Source: Saprospiraceae bacterium (GTDB taxonomy: Bacteria; Bacteroidota; Bacteroidia; Chitinophagales; Saprospiraceae). Taken from it: a DNA stretch of 62,351 bases. The stretch is from positions 1 through 62,351 of the forward strand of contig JALHLK010000026.1 in assembly GCA_022844565.1 (NCBI GenBank), in the 5' to 3' direction. Under the pieces are notes generated by a model. It saw only the letters and a list, made by a program, of their open reading frames with translations, made no database searches and was not told the origin of the DNA. The stretch's first letter is position 1; each line of letters opens with the position of its first letter. Positions 48,702-62,351 of this stretch are shown piece by piece. A program made the translations under genes and the position numbers.

Positions 48702-50846
48702 CTAATTTTTAATCCTCTTTCTCTCTCTTGGCTTAGCTGGAGCTGGTTTAGGTGCTTGTGCTGGTGCTGGTTGAGATTGTTGAGCTGCAGGATTAGTCCT
48801 TTGCATGTTTCGGGAAGTCGGTTGGGTAGGGGTAGCTTCACCGTCATATCCTTCTTTCTTCATTTCTATTGACTCCACACCTCCAATGATTTTAAACTCT
48901 GTTCGTCTGTTAAACATGTGTTCTTCATCCGAACATTTTACTCCGTTAGTACATTTATTCAGAATCACCGTCTCACCATACCCCACAGCTTTAATCCTTT
49001 GTTCCTCAACTCCTTGTCTGATCAACCACTGCTTAGCAGACTCTGATCTTCGCTGAGATAATTTTTCATTATAACCATCAGATCCCTGCGCATCAGTATG
49101 CGAAGACAACTCAATGATCATTCTAGGATATTTGGTCATTAAATCGGTAAGGTAGCTTAGGTCTGGCTCTGATTCTGGGAGAATGTCCGATTTATCAAGA
49201 TCGTAGTATATATTATTTAGTCTGATTGCTTCGTTTATTTTTACAATCTGAACGTCTAATTCAGGTGGTTTAGACCTTAAAACAATATTGTTAAAGATCA
49301 TCGAATCCGTAATAATTCCGTTTGTGTTAAATTGTATAGAGTCTGGATAGTAACCATCCTTTATAATGACGGCTTTGAATCTTCTATCCACATCCAACGG
49401 GAAGCTAAAATCATTGGAAGAGGGATTTGTTTTTGTATCAGGATATCCGCCTTGTGTTAAATCATACAATTCGACGGTGACATTGTCAAGTCTACCATTT
49501 TCATCACTTACCTCTACTCTCAAACTCACAACCATGTCTCGAATACCTACCATATACACATCATCACAACATGTTTCGCTACCTTTCATTCTTGGTTTAC
49601 CTTCTGAGGGTCTATTGGAAGTCAAGAACCCTGATCTACCATCACTATTGAATCTTAAAAACATATCATCATACGATGAATTGTACTGAAAACCCATATT
49701 TGAGGATTCTGTCCAGTTTGAACCCGTCCATTCAGAATAGAAAATATCATAACCTCCTAAACCAGCTTTACCGTCGGTGCTAAAGTATAAAGCACCATCT
49801 TTATAAAATGGAGAGATATCATCTTTTGATGTATTCACAGTTGGACCCAAATTAACAGGCGTGCCATAAGTGTCTCCATTAATTTCTGAATAATATATAT
49901 CAAAACCGCCTATCCCGCCAGGTCTATCTGAGGAGAAAAATATAACTTGTCTACCAAATAAATCACCTTCAAAGGGATGCTTATTCACAAAATCACCATT
50001 AAGTGCATCAACGGAGGTAGGAGAGCCCCAACTTGTCCCTTTAGAAACTACATAAAATATATCTGATTCATCTATGGAATTACCCAATAATTTAGCCCTT
50101 GTAAAATACATTTTTCTACCATCGCGACTAAAAGCAACTCCACCATGATGAAAACCAGCCCGATTGACTAAGTCATTCAATTTTTCTGTTTTATCAAAAT
50201 CACCCTTATCATTTTGAGTTGCACTGTATATTTTAGCATGAAAGTCACCTTCTTTACCATCTATAATGACTTCTTTTCTGCTATTAAAAGACGAGAAGTA
50301 CAATTTGCCATCAGGACCTAAAACAGGAGCTGATTCTGCGGAGCCCGAATTAACTTTACCTTTTACAAAACCGATACCCACTTCTAAATTTTGAGGATAT
50401 TTTTCATACGATTCTATGCCTAATTTAGAAATTTCTGCGGCTTTTTTCAAGCTATCGTCGATCTCAGGGTTTAAAAGTATTAAATTAAATTGTTCTAAAG
50501 CCTCTGCATACTTACCCTGAGATTTCAGCACTTCACCATAGGCTACTCGTATATCCTCATATTCTTTTTTCTTGTCTCTTTTTAGAATTCTTGAATATCC
50601 AAGCTCAGCTCTTTTAAAATCTCTAGCTCTCACATACAAATCTGCAATGGCCACTTGTAAGTTCATATCTTTACTTTCGTCATATGCTTGAGTAAACCAA
50701 TCAATCGCATTGTAATAATCACCATTTTGTGCACTCATGTCAGCGGTTGCTAATTTAGTAGCATAAGTTACCGTTTTTATTGGTTGGCCAAATAGTGGTA
50801 TTAAGGCCAAATTAAATGTAATAATTAAATAAAATATTTTCTTCAT
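48702..50846 (-). CDS. OmpA-family protein with TPR and PD40 repeats (type IX secretion/gliding-associated)
   Basis: The 714-residue protein has a signal peptide (about 1-20), TPR-like helices (about 28-140), a PD40 beta-propeller (about 165-425; LGPDGKLYFSSF, FSRDGRKMYFT, FSSDRPGGIGGFDIYYSE), a carboxypeptidase-regulatory-like Ig fold (about 440-530) and an OmpA peptidoglycan-binding domain (about 545-670; IYYDLDKSDILPE, ELSSHTDAQGSDGYN, RRTEFKI). It ends in a Pro/Ala/Gln-rich tail. This layout matches PorE-like proteins that link type IX secretion components to the wall. Its PorP-like partner is 42 bases upstream. Confidence 0.85.
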   Translation of the reverse strand: MKKIFYLIITFNLALIPLFGQPIKTVTYATKLATADMSAQNGDYYNAIDWFTQAYDESKDMNLQVAIADLYVRARDFKRAELGYSRILKRDKKKEYEDIRVAYGEVLKSQGKYAEALEQFNLILLNPEIDDSLKKAAEISKLGIESYEKYPQNLEVGIGFVKGKVNSGSAESAPVLGPDGKLYFSSFNSRKEVIIDGKEGDFHAKIYSATQNDKGDFDKTEKLNDLVNRAGFHHGGVAFSRDGRKMYFTRAKLLGNSIDESDIFYVVSKGTSWGSPTSVDALNGDFVNKHPFEGDLFGRQVIFFSSDRPGGIGGFDIYYSEINGDTYGTPVNLGPTVNTSKDDISPFYKDGALYFSTDGKAGLGGYDIFYSEWTGSNWTESSNMGFQYNSSYDDMFLRFNSDGRSGFLTSNRPSEGKPRMKGSETCCDDVYMVGIRDMVVSLRVEVSDENGRLDNVTVELYDLTQGGYPDTKTNPSSNDFSFPLDVDRRFKAVIIKDGYYPDSIQFNTNGIITDSMIFNNIVLRSKPPELDVQIVKINEAIRLNNIYYDLDKSDILPESEPDLSYLTDLMTKYPRMIIELSSHTDAQGSDGYNEKLSQRRSESAKQWLIRQGVEEQRIKAVGYGETVILNKCTNGVKCSDEEHMFNRRTEFKIIGGVESIEMKKEGYDGEATPTQPTSRNMQRTNPAAQQSQPAPAQAPKPAPAKPRERKRIKN

Positions 50847-50888
50847 TAGTATTACTTTCTAAAAATTTTAAGTGTGGGTTTGAGCTAA

Positions 50889-51938
50889 TTATAATCTAGG
50901 ACAAACTACAATAGGTTTAGTTTTTGGTTTTTTATAAATCGTTCCTATGTAAGTGACACCAAATTCTATCGCATTTTGAACATCCGAAGCTTGACTATAT
51001 CCTGTAAAAGGCAAGTCATAACTGAAACCTGCGGTAAAACCTTTAAAATCCGCTCCAGCCAGAAACTGTCCCGAAGAAGTACCTGTTCTATATCCTAGTC
51101 CTGCTTTTACGATTAATGGTTTTTCTGGATTTAATTTATATCCGGCCATAGCATTAGCTGCAACCTGAGTAGTCGGGCCCATAGATTGGACAATTAAAGT
51201 TGGTTCGAGGGTCATATTTTTATTAATCTCCGTATCGTAAGTTGCAAAGGCGGTCAATCTAAGTGGTAAATCAAATAAGCCTGAGAAAGATGCAGTACTA
51301 TTGATAAAATGAGCTGCAGAAATGCCAATTACCGTTTTATTTTTTACACCTTTGCTCGTAAAAGAAAGACCACCGACCCAATTTGAAAATGATCTTTCCA
51401 CTCTTGGTTCACCACTTTGATTATTACCAGCTAATGATTGTACTGCCTGGATATCTGGGTCAACACTACCTCTGCCTGAGATTAAAAAGCTAGTGATATC
51501 TGTACCAGTAGGAACATTCATTCTTCTATTGATGGCTGTTCGTTGTGCACCGATAGACAAATACCTTTTCTGAGTTTTATCTAAGGCTAAGTGATATGCC
51601 AATCCCATTCTAGTATGTGTATCCATAAGGTCAAACAATCCCCGAGAATCTCTATTGATAGAAAGACCTACTCCAATCCAGTCTTGTTTTCTCAACCCTC
51701 TTATTACAGGAAGATCTACACCCGCCTCTATGGTTCTAAATCCATTCACACCTGTATTTTGATACTGTTCTCTATAAATTCCAGAAGCTCGATAGGTGCC
51801 AAGAAACGAACCATTTAGTGATGGATTCAAAGCTTGAGGTGCTAATCTGAAATTTGTAAAATGTATGTCTTGACCTTGCAATGTCAGTGTTGTGAATAGC
51901 AGCGTGCAAATAAAGATAGATTGTAAATTTTTTATCAT
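50889..51938 (-). CDS. PorP/SprF-family type IX secretion membrane protein
   Basis: The 349-residue protein has a signal peptide (about 1-22) and the PorP/SprF pattern: QDIHFTNFRLAPQALNPSLNGSF split as in the family, YREQYQN, VGLSINRDSRGLFDL, RYLSIGAQ and GFTAGFSYDLPF. It forms an outer-membrane barrel, often cotranscribed with an OmpA protein as here. In Bacteroidota such pairs handle attachment or secretion of specific large surface adhesins. Confidence 0.9.
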   Translation of the reverse strand: MIKNLQSIFICTLLFTTLTLQGQDIHFTNFRLAPQALNPSLNGSFLGTYRASGIYREQYQNTGVNGFRTIEAGVDLPVIRGLRKQDWIGVGLSINRDSRGLFDLMDTHTRMGLAYHLALDKTQKRYLSIGAQRTAINRRMNVPTGTDITSFLISGRGSVDPDIQAVQSLAGNNQSGEPRVERSFSNWVGGLSFTSKGVKNKTVIGISAAHFINSTASFSGLFDLPLRLTAFATYDTEINKNMTLEPTLIVQSMGPTTQVAANAMAGYKLNPEKPLIVKAGLGYRTGTSSGQFLAGADFKGFTAGFSYDLPFTGYSQASDVQNAIEFGVTYIGTIYKKPKTKPIVVCPRL

Positions 51939-52219: not shown

Positions 52220-52870
52220 ATGATAGAAAAAAAAATTGAAAAGAAAAATTGTAAAGTAACTTTTGTCCTTGACAAGAATGACTTCAGTGAATTTGATGAT
52301 ATTAGAGTATTAGGGGACTTCAATGGTTGGCATTATGAAAAAGGCTTGATCATGGAATTGAAGAAAGGTCAATTTAAATCTTCTATTACTGTCAAAGCAG
52401 GTATAAACTATGAATTTAGATATATCTTAAATGGTAGGCATTGGTTTAACGATCCTCAAGGTGATGGTCTTGTAGATTCTCCTTTTTATGGAATTAGCAA
52501 TACATTAATCATCATAAATGAAGCGGATGGTTCTGAGTCAAAAGTTGCTAAAACCAAAACTGTAGAAAAGACTATTCCAGCTACTGCTGAAACTGTAGCA
52601 CCTGCACCGAAAGTTGAGAAAGCACCCGCTGTTAAAAAGGCAGCCGCTGCACCAAAAGCGGAGAAAGCACCAGTTGTTAAAAAGGCAGCCACTGCACCAA
52701 AAGCGGAGAAAGCACCAGTTGTTAAAAAGGCAGCCCCTGCACCAAAAGCAGAGAAAGCACCAGTTGTTAAAAAGGCAGCACCTGCACCAAAAGTGGAGAA
52801 AGCACCAGTTGTTAAAAAGGCAGCACCTGCACCAAAAGCGGAGAAAGCTTCAACAGTTAAAAAGGCTTAA
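52220..52870 (+). CDS. Glycogen-binding (isoamylase early-set / AMPK-type CBM48) protein with Lys-Ala-Pro repeat tail
   Basis: From the ATG at 52220 the product has 216 residues. The first 95 form an early-set carbohydrate-binding domain: CKVTFVLDKNDF, VLGDFNGWHYEKG, FRYILNGRHWFNDPQGDG and SPFYGISNTLIII. Then come six 15-residue repeats of the type APAPKAEKAPVVKKA (52598-52867), a basic, histone-H1-like tail. Relatives in Bacteroidota continue into a helix-hairpin-helix domain. Here the frame stops at 52868, and that domain survives downstream only as a stop-riddled remnant (52871-53110). The role is unknown; a cytoplasmic protein binding glycogen and nucleic acid is a guess from the domains. 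Confidence 0.8.
   Translation: MIEKKIEKKNCKVTFVLDKNDFSEFDDIRVLGDFNGWHYEKGLIMELKKGQFKSSITVKAGINYEFRYILNGRHWFNDPQGDGLVDSPFYGISNTLIIINEADGSESKVAKTKTVEKTIPATAETVAPAPKVEKAPAVKKAAAAPKAEKAPVVKKAATAPKAEKAPVVKKAAPAPKAEKAPVVKKAAPAPKVEKAPVVKKAAPAPKAEKASTVKKA
52598..52867 (+). repeat. Six in-frame 45-bp coding repeats
   Basis: Six copies of a 45-bp unit encode variants of APAPKAEKAPVVKKA and end exactly at the stop codon. The high identity between neighbouring units indicates recent slippage or unequal exchange. Confidence 0.9.
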
Positions 52871-53110
52871 GATCTTAAGTAAATCGAAGGAGTTGGACCT
52901 AAAATTGTTGCGTCGTTGACAAATGGTGGTATTATAACTTTCTAAGATCTTGCGAAGGTAAAAGTTTAAAATTTAGAAGCAATTTTTAGTCCCGCTGAGT
53001 CATAATTTCCTGTAGCTAAACCAGCTGATTAGCCAGAAGAACCTAGGTTAGCAGCAGTAGACAAAATAGAAGTTTTGAAGAAATTACAAGATGGGCTTGA
53101 GTACGGTTAA
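52871..53110 (+). pseudogene. Frame-preserved helix-hairpin-helix C-terminal domain interrupted by stop codons
   Basis: Directly in frame after the stop at 52868 the DNA reads DLK, stop, IEGVGPKIVASLTNGGIITF, stop, DLAKVKV, stop, NLEAIFSPAES, stop, FPVAKPAD, stop (TAG), PEEPRLAAVDKIEVLKK then LQDGLEYG and TAA at 53108. This is the HhH domain that ends Bacteroidota L21 and early-set proteins (DDLKKIEGVGPKI ... TWPEQAxLAADGKWDELKKLQDEL). Stops lie at 52868, 52880, 52943, 52967, 53003 and 53030, yet no frameshift occurs over 80 codons. Each stop can arise by one C-to-T or G-to-A change from CAA, CAG or TGG. Confidence 0.8.
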
Positions 53111-53150: not shown

Positions 53151-53176
53151 AAGGGACTTCTTGGAGTCCCTTTTTT
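53151..53176 (+). terminator. Rho-independent terminator
   Basis: AAGGGACT (53151-53158) pairs with AGTCCCTT (53165-53172) around TCTTGG and runs into Ts. It lies after the dead HhH region, so the transcript still includes that region. Confidence 0.8.
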
Positions 53177-54894: not shown

Positions 54895-56301
54895 CTATTC
54901 AATTAGTTTATTGGCAACATAAATTGCAGCAATTCTATTTTTTATTACCTTTATTTTTGTTTCCATTTCTTTTATTTTAGATTGTAAAAAGGAAACTTCG
55001 CGCGAATTAACGAGGAAAATAGAACTTTCGCCCAAATCAAAAAGTCTATTTTCTGATTGTAACATGATATTATAGTTGATCACATTTTTTGATATTAATG
55101 CCAACTGATTTAGGAGGTTATCGGTATTGTTGGTGTATGATTGAAATTTATTATTTATTTCCAATCTTTTTGTGCTAAGATTAAATTGATTTTCATAGAT
55201 TTTGGCATTAGTAAAAGCCACTTTACCCCGCTCTTTTCTTAAAAACAAAGGCATATAGAATGAAGCTCCAAGTTTAAAATCATTTGGATTATAACCAATA
55301 GGTAAATAGTTTGAACTTGCATTAATCAATGGGTTATAGTTGACACGCACATCTGGTTTTAGATTTTCTCGATTAAGTCGATTTTCGAGTTGCAATTCAT
55401 TGATTTTTAAAATTCCTAAGTTGATATCTGGATGTCTATCGATCCAATTGTCATCTATTCTTAAAGTATTTAACTGTTCCTTGAAACTTTCTTGGTTGAT
55501 GATTTCAGGCAAGGCAAGGGGATCCAGTTCTAGAGGTGTCTGTCCATCGATCCATAGAAAGTTGTTGAGATCAATTCTAGCATTAATTAAGTTTTGTTGT
55601 GCTTCTATCAACTCTTGTTCTCTGATTGTTTTCAAAATGAAAATTTCTAGTGTATCGATCGATGGCTTATCACCCAATTCGAAGAGCGATTTCGTACTAT
55701 TGAATCTTACATTAGCAAATTGTAATCCCTCTTTTGCAATTTCAGTTAAGGCAAATGCTTGCTGCCAATTCAAATAAGCATTTGCAGCATCATAATATAG
55801 ATCATTGAGCATTATTTGTTGGATAGCTTGTGTCGACTCTGTAAAAATCTTAGCTCTTTTAAGTTCAAATCTTCTTTCATCCAAAACCAAACCCCTAGCA
55901 AGCGGAAAACTTATACCCATGGTAAAGAGCCCGTTATTTGGTAAAGCGTCTGAGCTATTTACAAATTCACCACTGGTTCTATCATAATAACTTTTTAATT
56001 CAATACCATACCATGTTGGAATAGAAATACCTGTACTTAGTAAGTTGAAGTACGTCTTGTCTTCAAACCTTTTTCTGTCCAAATTAAAACCTACTTTGGG
56101 GTCAAAACCACCTTTGGCCATTAACAAATTCGCTTTGCTATAATCATTTTGAAGTTTTGATGATAAGGATAAAGGATGATGGTCAAGTACAATGTCAATA
56201 TATTGCTCAAAGGTAACTACGCTTTGTGCTGTAATATGACCATAGGTAAAGGAGAACCAAAAAAGAAAAAATACGAAAAAACGGTGTAGAAAATGACTCA
56301 T
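54895..56301 (-). CDS. TolC-family outer-membrane efflux protein
   Basis: The 468-residue protein has a signal peptide (about 1-25, ending HITAQS) and the long alpha-helical repeats of TolC proteins (about 60-460): SLSSKLQNDYSKANLLMAKGGF, coiled EIAKEGLQFANVRFNSTKSLFELGD and the second-half equivalent NRLFDLGESSIFLVNSRE split at the family's typical site. It would form the outer channel of the export system; its start is 2 bases after the HlyD gene. Confidence 0.88.
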   Translation of the reverse strand: MSHFLHRFFVFFLFWFSFTYGHITAQSVVTFEQYIDIVLDHHPLSLSSKLQNDYSKANLLMAKGGFDPKVGFNLDRKRFEDKTYFNLLSTGISIPTWYGIELKSYYDRTSGEFVNSSDALPNNGLFTMGISFPLARGLVLDERRFELKRAKIFTESTQAIQQIMLNDLYYDAANAYLNWQQAFALTEIAKEGLQFANVRFNSTKSLFELGDKPSIDTLEIFILKTIREQELIEAQQNLINARIDLNNFLWIDGQTPLELDPLALPEIINQESFKEQLNTLRIDDNWIDRHPDINLGILKINELQLENRLNRENLKPDVRVNYNPLINASSNYLPIGYNPNDFKLGASFYMPLFLRKERGKVAFTNAKIYENQFNLSTKRLEINNKFQSYTNNTDNLLNQLALISKNVINYNIMLQSENRLFDLGESSIFLVNSREVSFLQSKIKEMETKIKVIKNRIAAIYVANKLIE

Positions 56302-56303
56302 AG

Positions 56304-57680
56304 CTACTTCAATTTTTTTGCTGGTATTTTTTGTTTTAACTTATCACCGTTTTCATAATCCGGTTTATAAAAATCGGCTGGGAAACCATTCAATTGTCGC
56401 CATAATTCGTAGCCCACAGTTACATTTTTGAGTAGAGAGATGGTATTCGCCCCACCGCCTACTTTTACTTCAGTTGGCCAAGGCTTCTCTTGATTTTCTT
56501 CACTTATTAAAACCCTATATTTGCCATTTGGACTTATAAAATTGTCTATAGCATATACTTTTCCATTGAAAGTACCAAACGAACTATTAGGCCAACCACT
56601 AAACACGATTGCTGGCCATCCATCAAATTGTATCATCACTTTTTGCCCTTTTGTCAACAGAGGTAAATCCATTGGTTCAACATAAGTCTCAACTGCCAAG
56701 GTATACTGCAATGGCATAATACTTACTATCTGATCACCGTTTTTGACGATTTCACCGATTCCTGATTGAATAGCTTGAGTAACGTACCCATTAATAGGTG
56801 ATTTTATGACATAGTTGTTTATTCGTTCGTTGTAACTATTGACTTGAGATTTGAGTTTACCAATTGTGGCATCTGTATCATATTTTGAGGAAAGCGCACT
56901 TTGCATTTCACTTCGAGATTTGGCAATTTTATCTCTAAAGTCATTATCTATTCCTTGAATTTCGGCTTTTAAGTTATCAAGTTCATTACGACCTGTTGCA
57001 ATTTTATTTTGCATGTCTACGAGCTTTGCTTGATTTTCTTGAAACTTAGCGCGTTTTGATTCTAAATCTATCAAAGGTTTTAACCCTTCCTTAAAAAGTT
57101 GGTCAGCCCTTTTTAGTTGAGCTTCGGCAATCTGTAAGTTTAAATTTGTCGCTACTAGCTCAATACTGTCAGATTGAATTTTTAGCTTAGTCTGCTTGAC
57201 TTTTATGTTATTTTGGTTTAACTTAACTTCTCTATTTTTTATTAATGCATTATATTGTTCTATTAAGTTATTTGCTTTTTCGGAATATGCTTTAGAAGAC
57301 TCTACTTTTGCGAAAATTTGAGAATTCGTATTTTCTATCAGAGCAGGGTCCAAATATTCTTCTTTAACCTCACTTATTATGACAATGGTATCTCCTACCT
57401 CGACTAATTCTCCTTCTGACACAAACCAAGACTCAATTCTCCCTCCTATCATGGTTTGTACTGTTTGAGGTCTATCATATGGATTGAGCGTTGTTACAAA
57501 ACCTTTGGATCTAATGAATTGTGTCCAAGGTAGAAATAAACAAGAAATCATGATAACAATTACAAACCAAATAATTCTAACAAGTGATTTTGAAACACTT
57601 TTCTTGTTGACCATATTAAATGACGCTAATTTAGTTAGGTCAATATAATCATTAATTCTATTTTCACTGATATTCAACAT
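56304..57680 (-). CDS. HlyD-family membrane fusion protein
   Basis: The 458-residue protein has one N-terminal membrane helix (about 30-50; IIWFVIVIMISCLFLPW), a biotinyl-like first lobe (IGGRIESWFVSEGELVEVGDTIVII), a long coiled-coil hairpin (about 120-290), and the second lobe with INGYVTQAIQSGIGEIVKNGD and barrel strands. It connects the inner-membrane ABC protein to TolC. Its gene starts 12 bases after the ABC gene. Confidence 0.88.
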   Translation of the reverse strand: MLNISENRINDYIDLTKLASFNMVNKKSVSKSLVRIIWFVIVIMISCLFLPWTQFIRSKGFVTTLNPYDRPQTVQTMIGGRIESWFVSEGELVEVGDTIVIISEVKEEYLDPALIENTNSQIFAKVESSKAYSEKANNLIEQYNALIKNREVKLNQNNIKVKQTKLKIQSDSIELVATNLNLQIAEAQLKRADQLFKEGLKPLIDLESKRAKFQENQAKLVDMQNKIATGRNELDNLKAEIQGIDNDFRDKIAKSRSEMQSALSSKYDTDATIGKLKSQVNSYNERINNYVIKSPINGYVTQAIQSGIGEIVKNGDQIVSIMPLQYTLAVETYVEPMDLPLLTKGQKVMIQFDGWPAIVFSGWPNSSFGTFNGKVYAIDNFISPNGKYRVLISEENQEKPWPTEVKVGGGANTISLLKNVTVGYELWRQLNGFPADFYKPDYENGDKLKQKIPAKKLK

Positions 57681-57692
57681 AATCGTACAATT

Positions 57693-59381
57693 CTAGGGTT
57701 TTATAATTTTACCATTTTCCATCGTGTAGGATGTATCTAGATATTTTTTCCAAGTTTGATCTGAGTCTGCTACAATAAGTGTCCATCTATTGGATTTTAA
57801 TGTGAGTGCCTCCATGATAGAAAGTTTATCGGAAGAATCTAAATGATCCAATGGGCTATCCAAAATAATTAACTTTGGATCACCAACAATAGCCCTTGCT
57901 ATACATATTTTATTAGCTATACTTAGCGCAATTTTTTTCCCTTCAGGATCAAGTTTTGTATCTAGACCCATAGGAAGTGATCCTACATATTCTTTAAGTT
58001 TTACCTTGTCCAAGGCGGACATTACTTCTACAACCCCCAAACCAGGTTTGCCTAGGGACACATTTTCAAATATTGTACCTGAAAAAATCTCAAAATTTGA
58101 AAGGACATAACCAGTATTTTTTCTTAATTGGAACACATCAATTGAAAATGGAGAAACTCCATTAAAAAAGATGCTCCCTTCATCTGGTTCGATCAATCCA
58201 GAGATAATACTCAACAATGTTGTTTTTCCACTTCCATTTTCGCCAAAAATGCCAATTTTTGCACCTGCTGGTATGGTTAAATTAATGTTCTTAAGTGCTT
58301 TCTTATTAGAATCATTAAAAGCGTAAGACAATCCATCTATTTGAATATCTATGCTATCATTGATGCCCTGACCATATTTTGATGTTTTTATTTTATCCAA
58401 TGGTAAGTCTGTGATATATCCTATTTTTTCAATAGCGGTTATAAGGTCATAGATAGAATCAAGAGCTGAAATGATTTTTTCAATAGAGGCTATAATTAAG
58501 AGTATGATAATTTCTGCGGCAACAAATTGGCCAATGTTCATTTCTTGTCTAAAAACCAAGACACCACCAATGATTAGAAACCCAGCAGAAATTAAGATCT
58601 TAAAAAACATTAACCAAAAAAATTGATTAGCTAGAATTTTGAAGTGACTTTCTCGCGCATTTATGTAGTTTACAACTTTATTATCTGTATTTTCTAGGTT
58701 AATATTGTTGTCAGGATTGAGTTTGAATGATACTTTTGTTCGAGCTACTTCTTCAAGCCAATAGGCAACTTCATATTTATACTTTGACTCTTGAAGGCTG
58801 GTTTTCAAACCCATCGGCACTATGTATCTAATCAAAAAGAAAACCAATATAATTAATAGCAATGCAAAAAATACAAAAAATGAATGATACATACTGAGCA
58901 CCAGTAGTCCTAACATGATTTGAAAAGCACCTAAAGAAAAGTCAATAAGCATTTTTGGTAGACTTTTTTGAATAGTAATTGTATCAAAAAATCTGTTAGC
59001 AAGCTCAGGGGCATAGTAATTATAAAGCGACTGGTAGTTTATTTTAGGAAACCTGTATGCAAACTCAAAAGCAGATCTTGTAAATATTTTTTGTGATATG
59101 TTTTCAACAATCCTCAACTGCATATATTGAAAGAAACCCATTAAAGCAAGACCTAAAAGTACAATTCCTACCACAATAATCCAAGAATTTGAAATTTCAC
59201 CTCCTTGGATTAGATTAATAATGGCCTGTAAACCAAGCGGTAAGGACAAGTTTACCAGACCATTAAACAATGCGTATATATACACCTGTGTAATGTCTTT
59301 TTTGTCAAGTTTTAATAATCGTCTAAACCTTTGTACGGCAGTTAATCTGCTACTTTCCTTCATGGTCGTTTTATTAGTCAT
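57693..59381 (-). CDS. Type I secretion-like ABC transporter with degenerate ATPase motifs
   Basis: The 562-residue half transporter has about five to six membrane helices (about 30-310) and a nucleotide-binding domain (about 345-560). Walker A is intact (GENGSGKT, 380-387). The Q-loop Gln is Ser428, the LSGGQ signature reads ALSIANK (485-491), the catalytic Glu after Walker B is Ser509 (LIILDSP), and the switch His is Asp539 (VADSD). No peptidase C39 domain is present. Similar degenerate exporters occur with HlyD and TolC genes in other Bacteroidota, from general knowledge. It heads the ABC-HlyD-TolC operon, divergent from the giant surface-protein gene. Confidence 0.85.
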   Translation of the reverse strand: MTNKTTMKESSRLTAVQRFRRLLKLDKKDITQVYIYALFNGLVNLSLPLGLQAIINLIQGGEISNSWIIVVGIVLLGLALMGFFQYMQLRIVENISQKIFTRSAFEFAYRFPKINYQSLYNYYAPELANRFFDTITIQKSLPKMLIDFSLGAFQIMLGLLVLSMYHSFFVFFALLLIILVFFLIRYIVPMGLKTSLQESKYKYEVAYWLEEVARTKVSFKLNPDNNINLENTDNKVVNYINARESHFKILANQFFWLMFFKILISAGFLIIGGVLVFRQEMNIGQFVAAEIIILLIIASIEKIISALDSIYDLITAIEKIGYITDLPLDKIKTSKYGQGINDSIDIQIDGLSYAFNDSNKKALKNINLTIPAGAKIGIFGENGSGKTTLLSIISGLIEPDEGSIFFNGVSPFSIDVFQLRKNTGYVLSNFEIFSGTIFENVSLGKPGLGVVEVMSALDKVKLKEYVGSLPMGLDTKLDPEGKKIALSIANKICIARAIVGDPKLIILDSPLDHLDSSDKLSIMEALTLKSNRWTLIVADSDQTWKKYLDTSYTMENGKIIKP

Positions 59382-59544
59382 TATCCAACGGTAAAAGGTA
59401 AGTATAGTTTTTAATAATTTTTAAATATTTGTTAAAAAAGTTTGGACTTTTGTTAAAATGGTTATAGTTTGAAATAGGTTAATTATTAATGTATGTAAAT
59501 AATTAATATATGAATATTTAATATTAACTTATGATTGTGAGTTG

Positions 59545-59552
59545 TAACTTTA
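59545..59552 (+). promoter_or_regulatory. Possible -7 box (TAACTTTA) for the giant surface-protein gene
   Basis: TAACTTTA differs from TAnnTTTG at the last base and lies 22 bases before the ATG. The shared 193-bp gap with the divergent ABC operon is very AT-rich. Confidence 0.3.
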
Positions 59553-59574
59553 CGGTACCTAACTAGAATGGAAT

Positions 59575-62351
59575 ATGAACAAAATATCTACAAAAGGCAA
59601 AAGTCCGTCTACTATTTTTATTGCATTAGTGGCAATATGCCTTGTCTTTAGTTTAACCATAACATCTAAAAAGTATTTTTTTAACAATGATTATCACAAC
59701 TTGTCTGCGGGTAATTTAAATCAGAATTGGACAAATGCAGGCTTAATATCTACTGATGATGATTGGTCTGGGGTGCCAAGTATAATTGGTTATGGTGGTG
59801 CAATTGGTACTACTACAGCCACAGGAAGAGATCCACAGACTATTTTAGAACCATTCTCAGATTTTCAGGTTGATGCCAATCATACCAGTTTGGCAACTGC
59901 GACAGGAGGTGTCTTTGAATTTAATATTACCAATCCCACTATTGCTATACAACCATCTAGTGGCTCTGATGCACCAAATATTGTCTTACATTTAAATACT
60001 ACTGGAGTTGAAAATGCCAAAATTTCTTATAATTTAAGAGACATAGACAATACTGATGATAATGCAATTCAACCTATTGCATTGCAGTATAGAATTGGAG
60101 AGCTTGGTAATTTTATAAATATTCCTTCTGGCTTTGTAGCTGATGCATCAGCAGGTCCCTTTGATACGCTAAATACTTTTGTAGAAGTTTTGCTTCCATA
60201 TGAGTGTGGAAATCAACCACAACTCCAACTGAGAATTATTTCGTGGAACGCGGTTGGAAGTGATGAATTTATTGGAATTGATAATATCAATGTTTCTAAG
60301 ATTGAAGTATTAGATTGTAGCTTAGATACGGTTACCGTAGTATCAGGTATTGGAAACATAATTATTGACAGTTTTTTAGCTGATTATGGGTTGACTCCCA
60401 ATCAAACATTGCTGGTTAATGGAATACCTGCCACTGGACCTCTGGTCAATGTTGCTTGTGTAAACGGGGAGTTTTCAGCTGAAGTAGCTTTAATTGAACA
60501 AACTGGTATCTCAATTGATACATTGGCTAAATGCACTAAATTACTTTATGCATCTGATATAGGAGAAGTACAAGAAGCAGCTGTTTTAAATGAAATAAAT
60601 ATTTCTCTAAATGAAAATTGTGAAGGTTATATCGCTCCGCAGACTGTTTTAGCTAATGTTTCAAGCTGTGTAGGGGATATTTTGATTGAATTAGATTATC
60701 CTCTAGGTTCTACTGTTTTTGTTCCAGCAAATAAGTTAGACGGTTCCCATGTAGGGCAAAAAATAAAATATACACTAACCTTAGGTAATGGACTAAAGGC
60801 TTGGGGATACCTAAATGTTGAAGAAAAGTTAGGACCAACCATTGTTATTCCATCTGATGTGACCACATTCTGCTCAGAAGCTACTGATCCAGCTGTTCTA
60901 GTGATGGCTACAGCTACAGATTGCAGTGGTGATGTTCAAATTTCATTTAGAGATTCAGTAGAAAAATTTGATTGCGCTTCAGATACTGGACAAGTGATAG
61001 AAATTATTTATAGAACATGGACCGCTGTCGACATACATGGGAATATTGCTTCTGATGTTCAGAAAATAACAGTGAGAGCATTGCCCCGATCTGCACTAAG
61101 ATTCCCAAATCCATATGTAGAATTGACTTGTTCTGAAGGTACATCCATTACTGAAATATCTTCCGCCAAAGGTTTCAGGAGTGGTAGACCCTATTACCGA
61201 AGTCCAAGAACAAATGGTGATAGAATATTACCACTGACAGGTGAATTATGTGATTATGTTGGTACTTTTGAAGATAGCCCTCCGATTTATACTTGTAAAG
61301 AAAATTGTCTTGCCAGTTATAAATTTATTAGAACATGGACAGTGATGAATTGGTGCACTGGTGATGTATCAAAGGGCCAACAGCTTATTGCGGTACTTGA
61401 TACTATCGCTCCTGAAATAGATGTACCCAGTCCAGCTGCCGAATACAGTGTAAACGAATGGGGCTGCGATGTAGACATTACGATGCCAACAGCTACTGTA
61501 CGAGATGCCTGCGATGTAGACGCAACAGTAGTAAGCATCCAAGGTCCAGTGGGCGTATCTGTGGTGAAGAGAGACAACACATGGGTAGCATTAAATGTAC
61601 CGAGTGGCACACATTCCTTCACATATTATGCAAGTGACTGTTGTGGTAATGAAAATACAGCTACGATCACATTAACGGTGGTAGACCGAGTAGCTCCAGT
61701 GGCGACAGCGAAGGAGTTCATAACGGTGAGCTTGGTGCGAAGTGGAGCAGATAATGTACTAGGTGTAGCTAAACTATTTGTAGATCAAGTAGACAACGGA
61801 AGTTATGATAACTGTACAAAAGTATACAGAGAGATCAGAAGAGAAGACAATGCACCAGCATGTCTGAATGCGGGAGATTTATGGGATCATGACAACAATC
61901 CGACTACACCTCGCATCCCATCATGGAACAATAACAGAACCTACAATAATGACGGACATCTACAAGATAATCCAAGTGACACAGATGATGGTCAATTTGT
62001 TAAATTCTGTTGTGAAGACATCGGAAAAGAAGTAAAAGTATGGTTGCGTGTATGGGATGATGCGAATGGCTCAGGGATCTTTGGTGACACGATAGAAGGA
62101 ATAGGAGATAATTACAATGAGACGTGGACTATGGTAAAGGTAGAAGACAAGATCGTACCATCAATCGAATGTGTACCGTATGTAGAGACCAGCTGTGATA
62201 GAGATACAGGCATTGTGACGGAATACAACTTCCAGAATGGTAGAACAGGAAGTCAAATTGTATGGGTTAATACAAGAGGAAGAGTACCATCATCATTGGT
62301 GCCAAAAGCAGAAGGTGTTTGTAATGATTATGAATTTGAGTTTTATGATAT
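59575..62351 (+). CDS. Giant Cys-rich HYR-like surface protein, N-terminal part (runs off the window)
   Basis: An open frame begins at the ATG 59575 and continues for over 925 codons to the window edge without a stop. It starts with a signal or anchor helix (STIFIALVAICLVFSLTI, about 13-30). A beta-sandwich of about 240 residues follows (GNLNQNWTNAG, NITNPTIAIQPSSGSDAP, LQLRIISWNAVGSDEF). After that come Cys-containing Ig/HYR-like modules: LDTIAPEIDVP, YYASDCCGNENTATITL, VVDRVAPVATAKEF, KVWLRVWDDANG and VKVEDKIVPSIEC. Such proteins in Saprospiraceae are thousands of residues long and usually carry type IX sorting signals at the end, which is not visible here. From about 61400 codon choice shifts to a more GC- and GTA/ACA-rich style. 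Confidence 0.8.
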   Translation, partial: MNKISTKGKSPSTIFIALVAICLVFSLTITSKKYFFNNDYHNLSAGNLNQNWTNAGLISTDDDWSGVPSIIGYGGAIGTTTATGRDPQTILEPFSDFQVDANHTSLATATGGVFEFNITNPTIAIQPSSGSDAPNIVLHLNTTGVENAKISYNLRDIDNTDDNAIQPIALQYRIGELGNFINIPSGFVADASAGPFDTLNTFVEVLLPYECGNQPQLQLRIISWNAVGSDEFIGIDNINVSKIEVLDCSLDTVTVVSGIGNIIIDSFLADYGLTPNQTLLVNGIPATGPLVNVACVNGEFSAEVALIEQTGISIDTLAKCTKLLYASDIGEVQEAAVLNEINISLNENCEGYIAPQTVLANVSSCVGDILIELDYPLGSTVFVPANKLDGSHVGQKIKYTLTLGNGLKAWGYLNVEEKLGPTIVIPSDVTTFCSEATDPAVLVMATATDCSGDVQISFRDSVEKFDCASDTGQVIEIIYRTWTAVDIHGNIASDVQKITVRALPRSALRFPNPYVELTCSEGTSITEISSAKGFRSGRPYYRSPRTNGDRILPLTGELCDYVGTFEDSPPIYTCKENCLASYKFIRTWTVMNWCTGDVSKGQQLIAVLDTIAPEIDVPSPAAEYSVNEWGCDVDITMPTATVRDACDVDATVVSIQGPVGVSVVKRDNTWVALNVPSGTHSFTYYASDCCGNENTATITLTVVDRVAPVATAKEFITVSLVRSGADNVLGVAKLFVDQVDNGSYDNCTKVYREIRREDNAPACLNAGDLWDHDNNPTTPRIPSWNNNRTYNNDGHLQDNPSDTDDGQFVKFCCEDIGKEVKVWLRVWDDANGSGIFGDTIEGIGDNYNETWTMVKVEDKIVPSIECVPYVETSCDRDTGIVTEYNFQNGRTGSQIVWVNTRGRVPSSLVPKAEGVCNDYEFEFYD

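Follow-up and report, generated by a model that had tools for sequence, protein, structure and literature searches.

A probable in-frame, stop-interrupted relic of a helix-hairpin-helix-type tail behind a CBM48-like gene of a Saprospiraceae bacterium

A gene encoding a CBM48-like protein, located in a 62,351-nucleotide stretch of a Saprospiraceae bacterium genome (referred to here as the window), is followed in its own frame by the remains of a helix-hairpin-helix-type (HhH) tail that is still intact in most comparable relatives but is broken by six stop codons in this copy. Very probably, this stretch is the decayed 3' end of the gene, a still young remnant of a C-terminal domain that could be dispensed with.

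Organization of the gene and its presumed former 3' end

The features of the region are as follows (all on the + strand):

52220..52540, +, CBM48/AMPK-CBM-type early-set carbohydrate-binding-like domain, intact (ORF, relatives, weak Pfam match)
52541..52867, +, Lys/Pro/Ala-rich linker (sequence, repeat search)
52868..52870, +, stop 1 (TAA), the present protein end and the stop of the called ORF
52868..53107, +, relic of a helix-hairpin-helix-type tail, continuing the frame of the gene and free of indels (profile match, 80 codons)
53108..53110, +, presumed old terminal stop (TAA) of the full-length gene (tail end position agreeing with that of intact relatives to a few codons)
53151..53172, +, intrinsic-terminator-like stem-loop with a T-run behind it

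The mechanical ORF of the CBM48-like gene begins at TTG 52172; the ATG at 52220 was taken as the probable start because it is aligned with the Met of relatives. Core residues of the domain are common to the window gene and four relatives, the nearest relative (locus L003) displays 49% identity across query residues 1-103 of the window gene, and Pfam AMPK1_CBM matched the window protein weakly (17.6 bits, below the cut-off of 26.8). The linker contains a 45-bp unit repeated six times (52597-52866, 0% indels), the end of which lies directly before stop 1. The present product, consisting of the CBM48-like domain and the linker, has about 216 residues (gene 52220-52870). The genome is a draft of 5.59 Mb in 102 contigs.

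Within the relic, in-frame TAA codons are found at 52868, 52880, 52943, 52967, and 53003 and a TAG at 53030, and TGA is absent. An earlier note on this DNA had described 79 more codons behind the gene; the same-frame stretch was recovered, its length being counted here as 80 codons, and the terminator that the note placed after the old end was found as the terminator-like stem at 53151-53172. An internal start for the tail was rejected (the longest stop-free run inside it is 25 codons), as was an RNA element (a single Rfam match, E 0.95, under the gathering score).

Homology of the tail

Intact tails (48) were gathered in related genomes by searching the loci for the motif [IV]EG[IVL]GPK, meaning that the conservation of the columns of this motif is partly by construction. 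The profile built from them matched the relic, with its stops masked as X, over positions 2-78 without a single gap (58.7 bits, i-E 4e-18 among 22 sources), in agreement with the earlier proposal of an HhH-type tail in the frame of the gene, interrupted by five TAA and one TAG and carrying no frameshift. When the whole window was used as the target, the relic scored 54.4 bits with the same profile. Sequence comparison thus confirms a homology between the relic and the intact tails that is beyond chance. Support separate from the motif-chosen profile was provided by Pfam HHH_5, which matched the relic just below its cut-off of 27 (24.9 bits, E 2.9e-5) and two intact relatives just above it; the "HhH" label of the tail is based on these profile and HHH_5 matches.

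Loss of conserved residues

Scored with a family matrix, from which the close relatives of each intact tail were left out when that tail was evaluated, the relic reached 69 vs 102-191 in the intact tails. Its N-terminal half (57.6) lies low within the intact range, with 2 of the 48 intact tails below it, and its C-terminal half (11.2) falls below all 48 (38.5-107). Twenty-two columns were considered conserved (kept in at least 43 of the 48 tails); the relic has lost seven of these, one to a stop (L41F, G45E, T55D, W56 to stop, Q59E, A60P, and G66D), while intact tails keep 19-22 and lose three at most. In addition, 19 residues of the relic occur at their column in none of the 48 tails; the corresponding number for an intact tail, judged against members that share less than 65% identity with it, is 0-13. 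The stops did not avoid conserved columns, as the mean information of the six stop columns was 2.95 vs 2.97 for all columns. The changes at conserved columns suggest that constraint on the relic was relaxed. The death of the domain, put forward in the earlier note, is supported by the six stops, the seven lost columns and the score of the C-terminal half; the idea that only transitions were involved is not, since none of the codons used by the 48 intact relatives at the TAA columns lies a single transition away from TAA.

Tailed and tail-less relatives

A first scan of genome contigs yielded no relative and a second one at least 80 loci, with identities up to 45%. In the loci examined, which are the best matches fetched and not an even sample, 137 non-redundant CBM48 matches were counted; in 37 of them the domain is followed by 60 codons or more and no contig end cuts the gene; 30 of these 37 have an intact tail, six (L008, L042, L044, L045, L056, and L064) have neither tail nor relic, and the window gene carries the sole relic. 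A six-frame profile search of the six tail-less loci found no tail. Two tailed loci (L039 and L041) and three tail-less ones (L042, L044, and L045) have a common downstream neighbour (71-73% identity, 320-331 aa). Based on the coexistence of tailed and tail-less loci and on this common neighbour, gain or loss of the tail is recurrent, and a tail-less CBM48-linker protein is a normal form. In solo CBM48 genes, several matches spanning one to three stops at the domain end proved not to be tails.

Proteins of the same bacterial family with the CBM48-linker-HhH arrangement (e.g., L004, L039, L041, and L043) show the same order of parts as the window gene, and the relic aligns with their tails without gaps; in contrast to the relic, these tails are open and preserve W56, G45, and Q59. 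Two loci of this bacterial family, L041 and L050, have exact stretches in common with a Bacteroidia MAG and an uncultured Lewinella MAG, which makes a Saprospiraceae-like bacterium a likely source of the window. The tail itself is very common in the family: a search across 398 genomes gave matches at E 1e-10 in 288 of them, and it occurs also in open frames of 700-800 codons (L180-L208). Among the matches listed, only the window copy carries several stops and one other carries a single TGA. In the literature, no paper was found on helix-hairpin-helix domains together with CBM48 in Bacteroidetes, or together with ribosomal protein L21 in Bacteroid- groups.

Six genomes of the genus were available for close orthologs. 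The 3' end of the nearest gene (L003, genome G005) is unreadable because the gene runs off its contig within the linker repeat, and a tail search across the genus gave, for that genome, only two HhH copies in another frame on contig C196; the tail of L003 is absent, unassembled or beyond reach. In the flanks available, the window gene has no neighbour gene in common with the CBM48 genes of the other genus members or with those of L039, L041, and L042.

Stop columns and decoding capacity

At the six stop columns, the relatives have predominantly D (42/48), K (30/48), A (25/48), a variable residue, R (39/48), and W (48/48), respectively, and Gln occurs there in 0, 0, 3, 1, 0, and 0 of the 48 tails. 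The view that all stops derive from Gln or Trp codons by single transitions would need an ancestral Gln where relatives are without it, and the Trp column, TGG in 48 of 48 relatives, is the only one that fits. A single residue shared by the stop columns in relatives, expected under a reassigned codon, was not found. Over the five TAA columns, Gln sums to -8.9 bits vs about +4.7 (spread 6) for average sense residues of the same tail, and with Gln in place of the stops the tail score drops from 69 to 55. Of the remaining residues, Ser, Asn, and Arg score near zero at these columns and Cys is highest (10.8), presumably because it is rare in the background. The Gln reading does not give the plausible protein formerly suggested, as residues invariant in the 48 tails are missing from it.

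A tRNA family search of the draft genome gave 35 matches, 33 of them above the cut-off; in a first look, 150 of 431 candidates were scored. ARAGORN called tRNAs at 32 of these 33 (one was partial and uncalled); none has a UUA or CUA anticodon, in a draft genome from which tRNA genes may be missing. A single Gln tRNA turned up, with the anticodon UUG. The search for suppressor tRNAs recommended in the earlier note was thus negative for the ARAGORN-called set, which includes no tRNA able to read UAA and UAG. Pattern searches for suppressor anticodons gave 522 and 206 matches vs 534 and 184 for the reversed pattern, counts so near the control that the patterns carry no signal, and three of the listed matches proved to be ordinary tRNAs (Arg, Leu, and Glu). 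In 1.26 of the 5.59 Mb, 730 ORFs of at least 200 codons end in TAA (436), TAG (177) or TGA (117), i.e., 613 in TAA or TAG; as ORFs end in stops by definition, these counts show only that long frames with TAA/TAG as stops are plentiful. Within that limit, they and the lack of any equally coding-like stretch among the other in-frame downstream stretches (259 in all) tend to speak against a genome-wide use of TAA and TAG as sense codons.

Codon structure and neutral decay

The 73 sense codons of the relic have a coding log-odds of 0.32 per codon vs 0.34 in undecayed re-encoded tails, and in a control that took in open-ended ORFs the relic had the highest coding score of 259 in-frame downstream stretches, of which it is one, the runner-up scoring 0.16. 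The erosion toward non-coding codon usage that is expected of old relics, and not required of young ones, was not observed. A second stop-laden, coding-like stretch on the minus strand (61317-61622) was discarded: the coding appearance of this ORF and of the sequence downstream of it, with its TAA/TAG stops, is merely the shadow of a long gene on the opposite (+) strand (59575-62349).

Neutral decay was simulated starting from family-like tails. Among 4622 simulated tails with a final score close to that of the relic, 224 carried at least six stops. A GC1-GC3 of at least 0.31 (observed, 0.33) was not reached by any of these 224, although GC1-GC3 alone is a weak measure, since even without decay only about 3% of tails are as high as observed. 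Six stops arose with a chance of 0.014-0.030 at 40 substitutions and 0.046-0.118 at 60 (0.008-0.028 and 0.06-0.115, respectively, in smaller runs), and at 40 substitutions the observed coding score was reached in 1.8-16.5% of runs. Six stops, the observed coding score and GC1-GC3 occurred jointly in 0 or 1 of 3000 runs per setting. The chance of finding no indel over 40 substitutions was 0.30-0.02 for assumed values of 0.03-0.10 indels per substitution. All these chances are to be read with selection in mind, since the case was noticed for its many stops and lack of frameshift. Simple neutral decay fits only moderately. The earlier suspicion of more stops than such slight damage elsewhere would lead one to expect finds some substance in the coding score and in the simulations, but the excess over neutral decay is suggestive and not established. 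If missense changes partly arose earlier, while the tail was still translated, the retained codon structure would be accounted for and the number of stops would be even harder to explain. In our judgement, the stop excess, the coding structure and the lack of indels can be put down to chance plus the selection of the case.

Alternative explanations

Retention of the coding structure in the sense codons, the absence of indels and the exclusive use of TAA/TAG, never TGA, would suit a translated tail in which a suppressor tRNA or local readthrough has the six codons read as an amino acid (Gln), so that a full-length protein is made. The ribosome would then need to get past two stops at a spacing of four codons, with a residue that scores poorly and is rare at the five TAA columns and with no matching anticodon among the tRNAs found; moreover, the invariant G45 and Q59 and other residues are lost regardless of how the stops are read, and among the matches listed the other tails carry one stop at most (the single TGA). 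Readthrough or reassignment, contemplated in the earlier note, is accordingly very unlikely. It is also very unlikely that the tail remains under codon-level selection as a domain drifted from the family and is occasionally translated through all six stops.

Improbable as well, if less extremely so, is that the tail died recently in a burst making stops faster than missense changes, e.g., by targeted C-to-T/G-to-A changes at Gln and Trp codons. The stop excess over the neutral simulations, the invariant TGG at the TAG column and the in-frame codons left in the relic (one CAA, no CAG or TGG) speak for such a process; on the other hand, the five TAA columns offer no codon one transition from TAA in any of the 48 relatives, Q59E, A60P and others are not stop-making transitions, and the tail shows no plain depletion of + strand C (0.138, vs 0.109 for the CBM part and 0.239 for the repetitive linker). 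Sequencing or assembly errors tend toward indels, and although the genome is a draft of many contigs, it is very unlikely that errors created six substitution-type stops in 240 bases alongside family-breaking missense changes, with the CBM48-linker frame and that of the next gene both open.

The young-relic reading implies that the ancestor probably had the CBM48-type domain, linker and HhH-type tail seen in 30 of the 37 comparable genes. The tail would have become dispensable in the window lineage, a stop may have been fixed at the end of the repetitive linker, and the untranslated remainder would then have gained more stops and missense changes, although this order of events is itself conjectural. 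The gene today would encode the CBM48-linker protein of about 216 residues, which is probably functional in this short form, and a long product is probably not made.

Genomic surroundings and relation to known systems

Upstream of the CBM48-like gene, a minus-strand gene pair (48702-51938) encodes one product with an OmpA-like C-terminus; we take the pair to consist of this protein and a PorP/SprF-like membrane protein. Pairs of this type are common in Bacteroidota. At 54895-62349, a minus-strand cluster adjoins a + strand gene that has 925 codons or more and continues beyond the window. The minus-strand genes look like, and presumably encode, a TolC-type outer membrane protein, an HlyD-type adaptor and an ABC exporter, and the region is reminiscent of a type I secretion unit accompanied by a large surface or secreted protein.

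In a Salmonella study, 131 cases with a premature stop are reported in the passage on about 346 pseudogenes (PMC2916853). As in the premature-stop pseudogenes of that passage, the window gene has a premature stop, has lost conserved residues behind it and is intact before it. The relic differs from the usual cases of this kind by its many stops, the absence of indels in 240 bases and its fresh codon structure. Stop codon reassignment, in the excerpt of PMC13092985 that of UGA to Trp, shares with the window the in-frame stops inside a recognisable domain; however, the codon reassigned in that excerpt is UGA, while the window stretch contains UAA/UAG only, and no matching tRNA was found. Most likely, the relic is of an ordinary kind and belongs to a known class, that of pseudogenised 3' ends.

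The case serves mainly as a caution: the opening of a frame once its stops are translated as Gln does not amount to evidence of recoding if these stops occupy conserved non-Gln columns. Should close relatives bear out the stop excess, a process generating stops at a higher rate than missense changes, or else readthrough, would be indicated. As a relic, the stretch would capture the shedding of a modular C-terminal domain; in the accessory protein family concerned, tail-less forms are recurrent.
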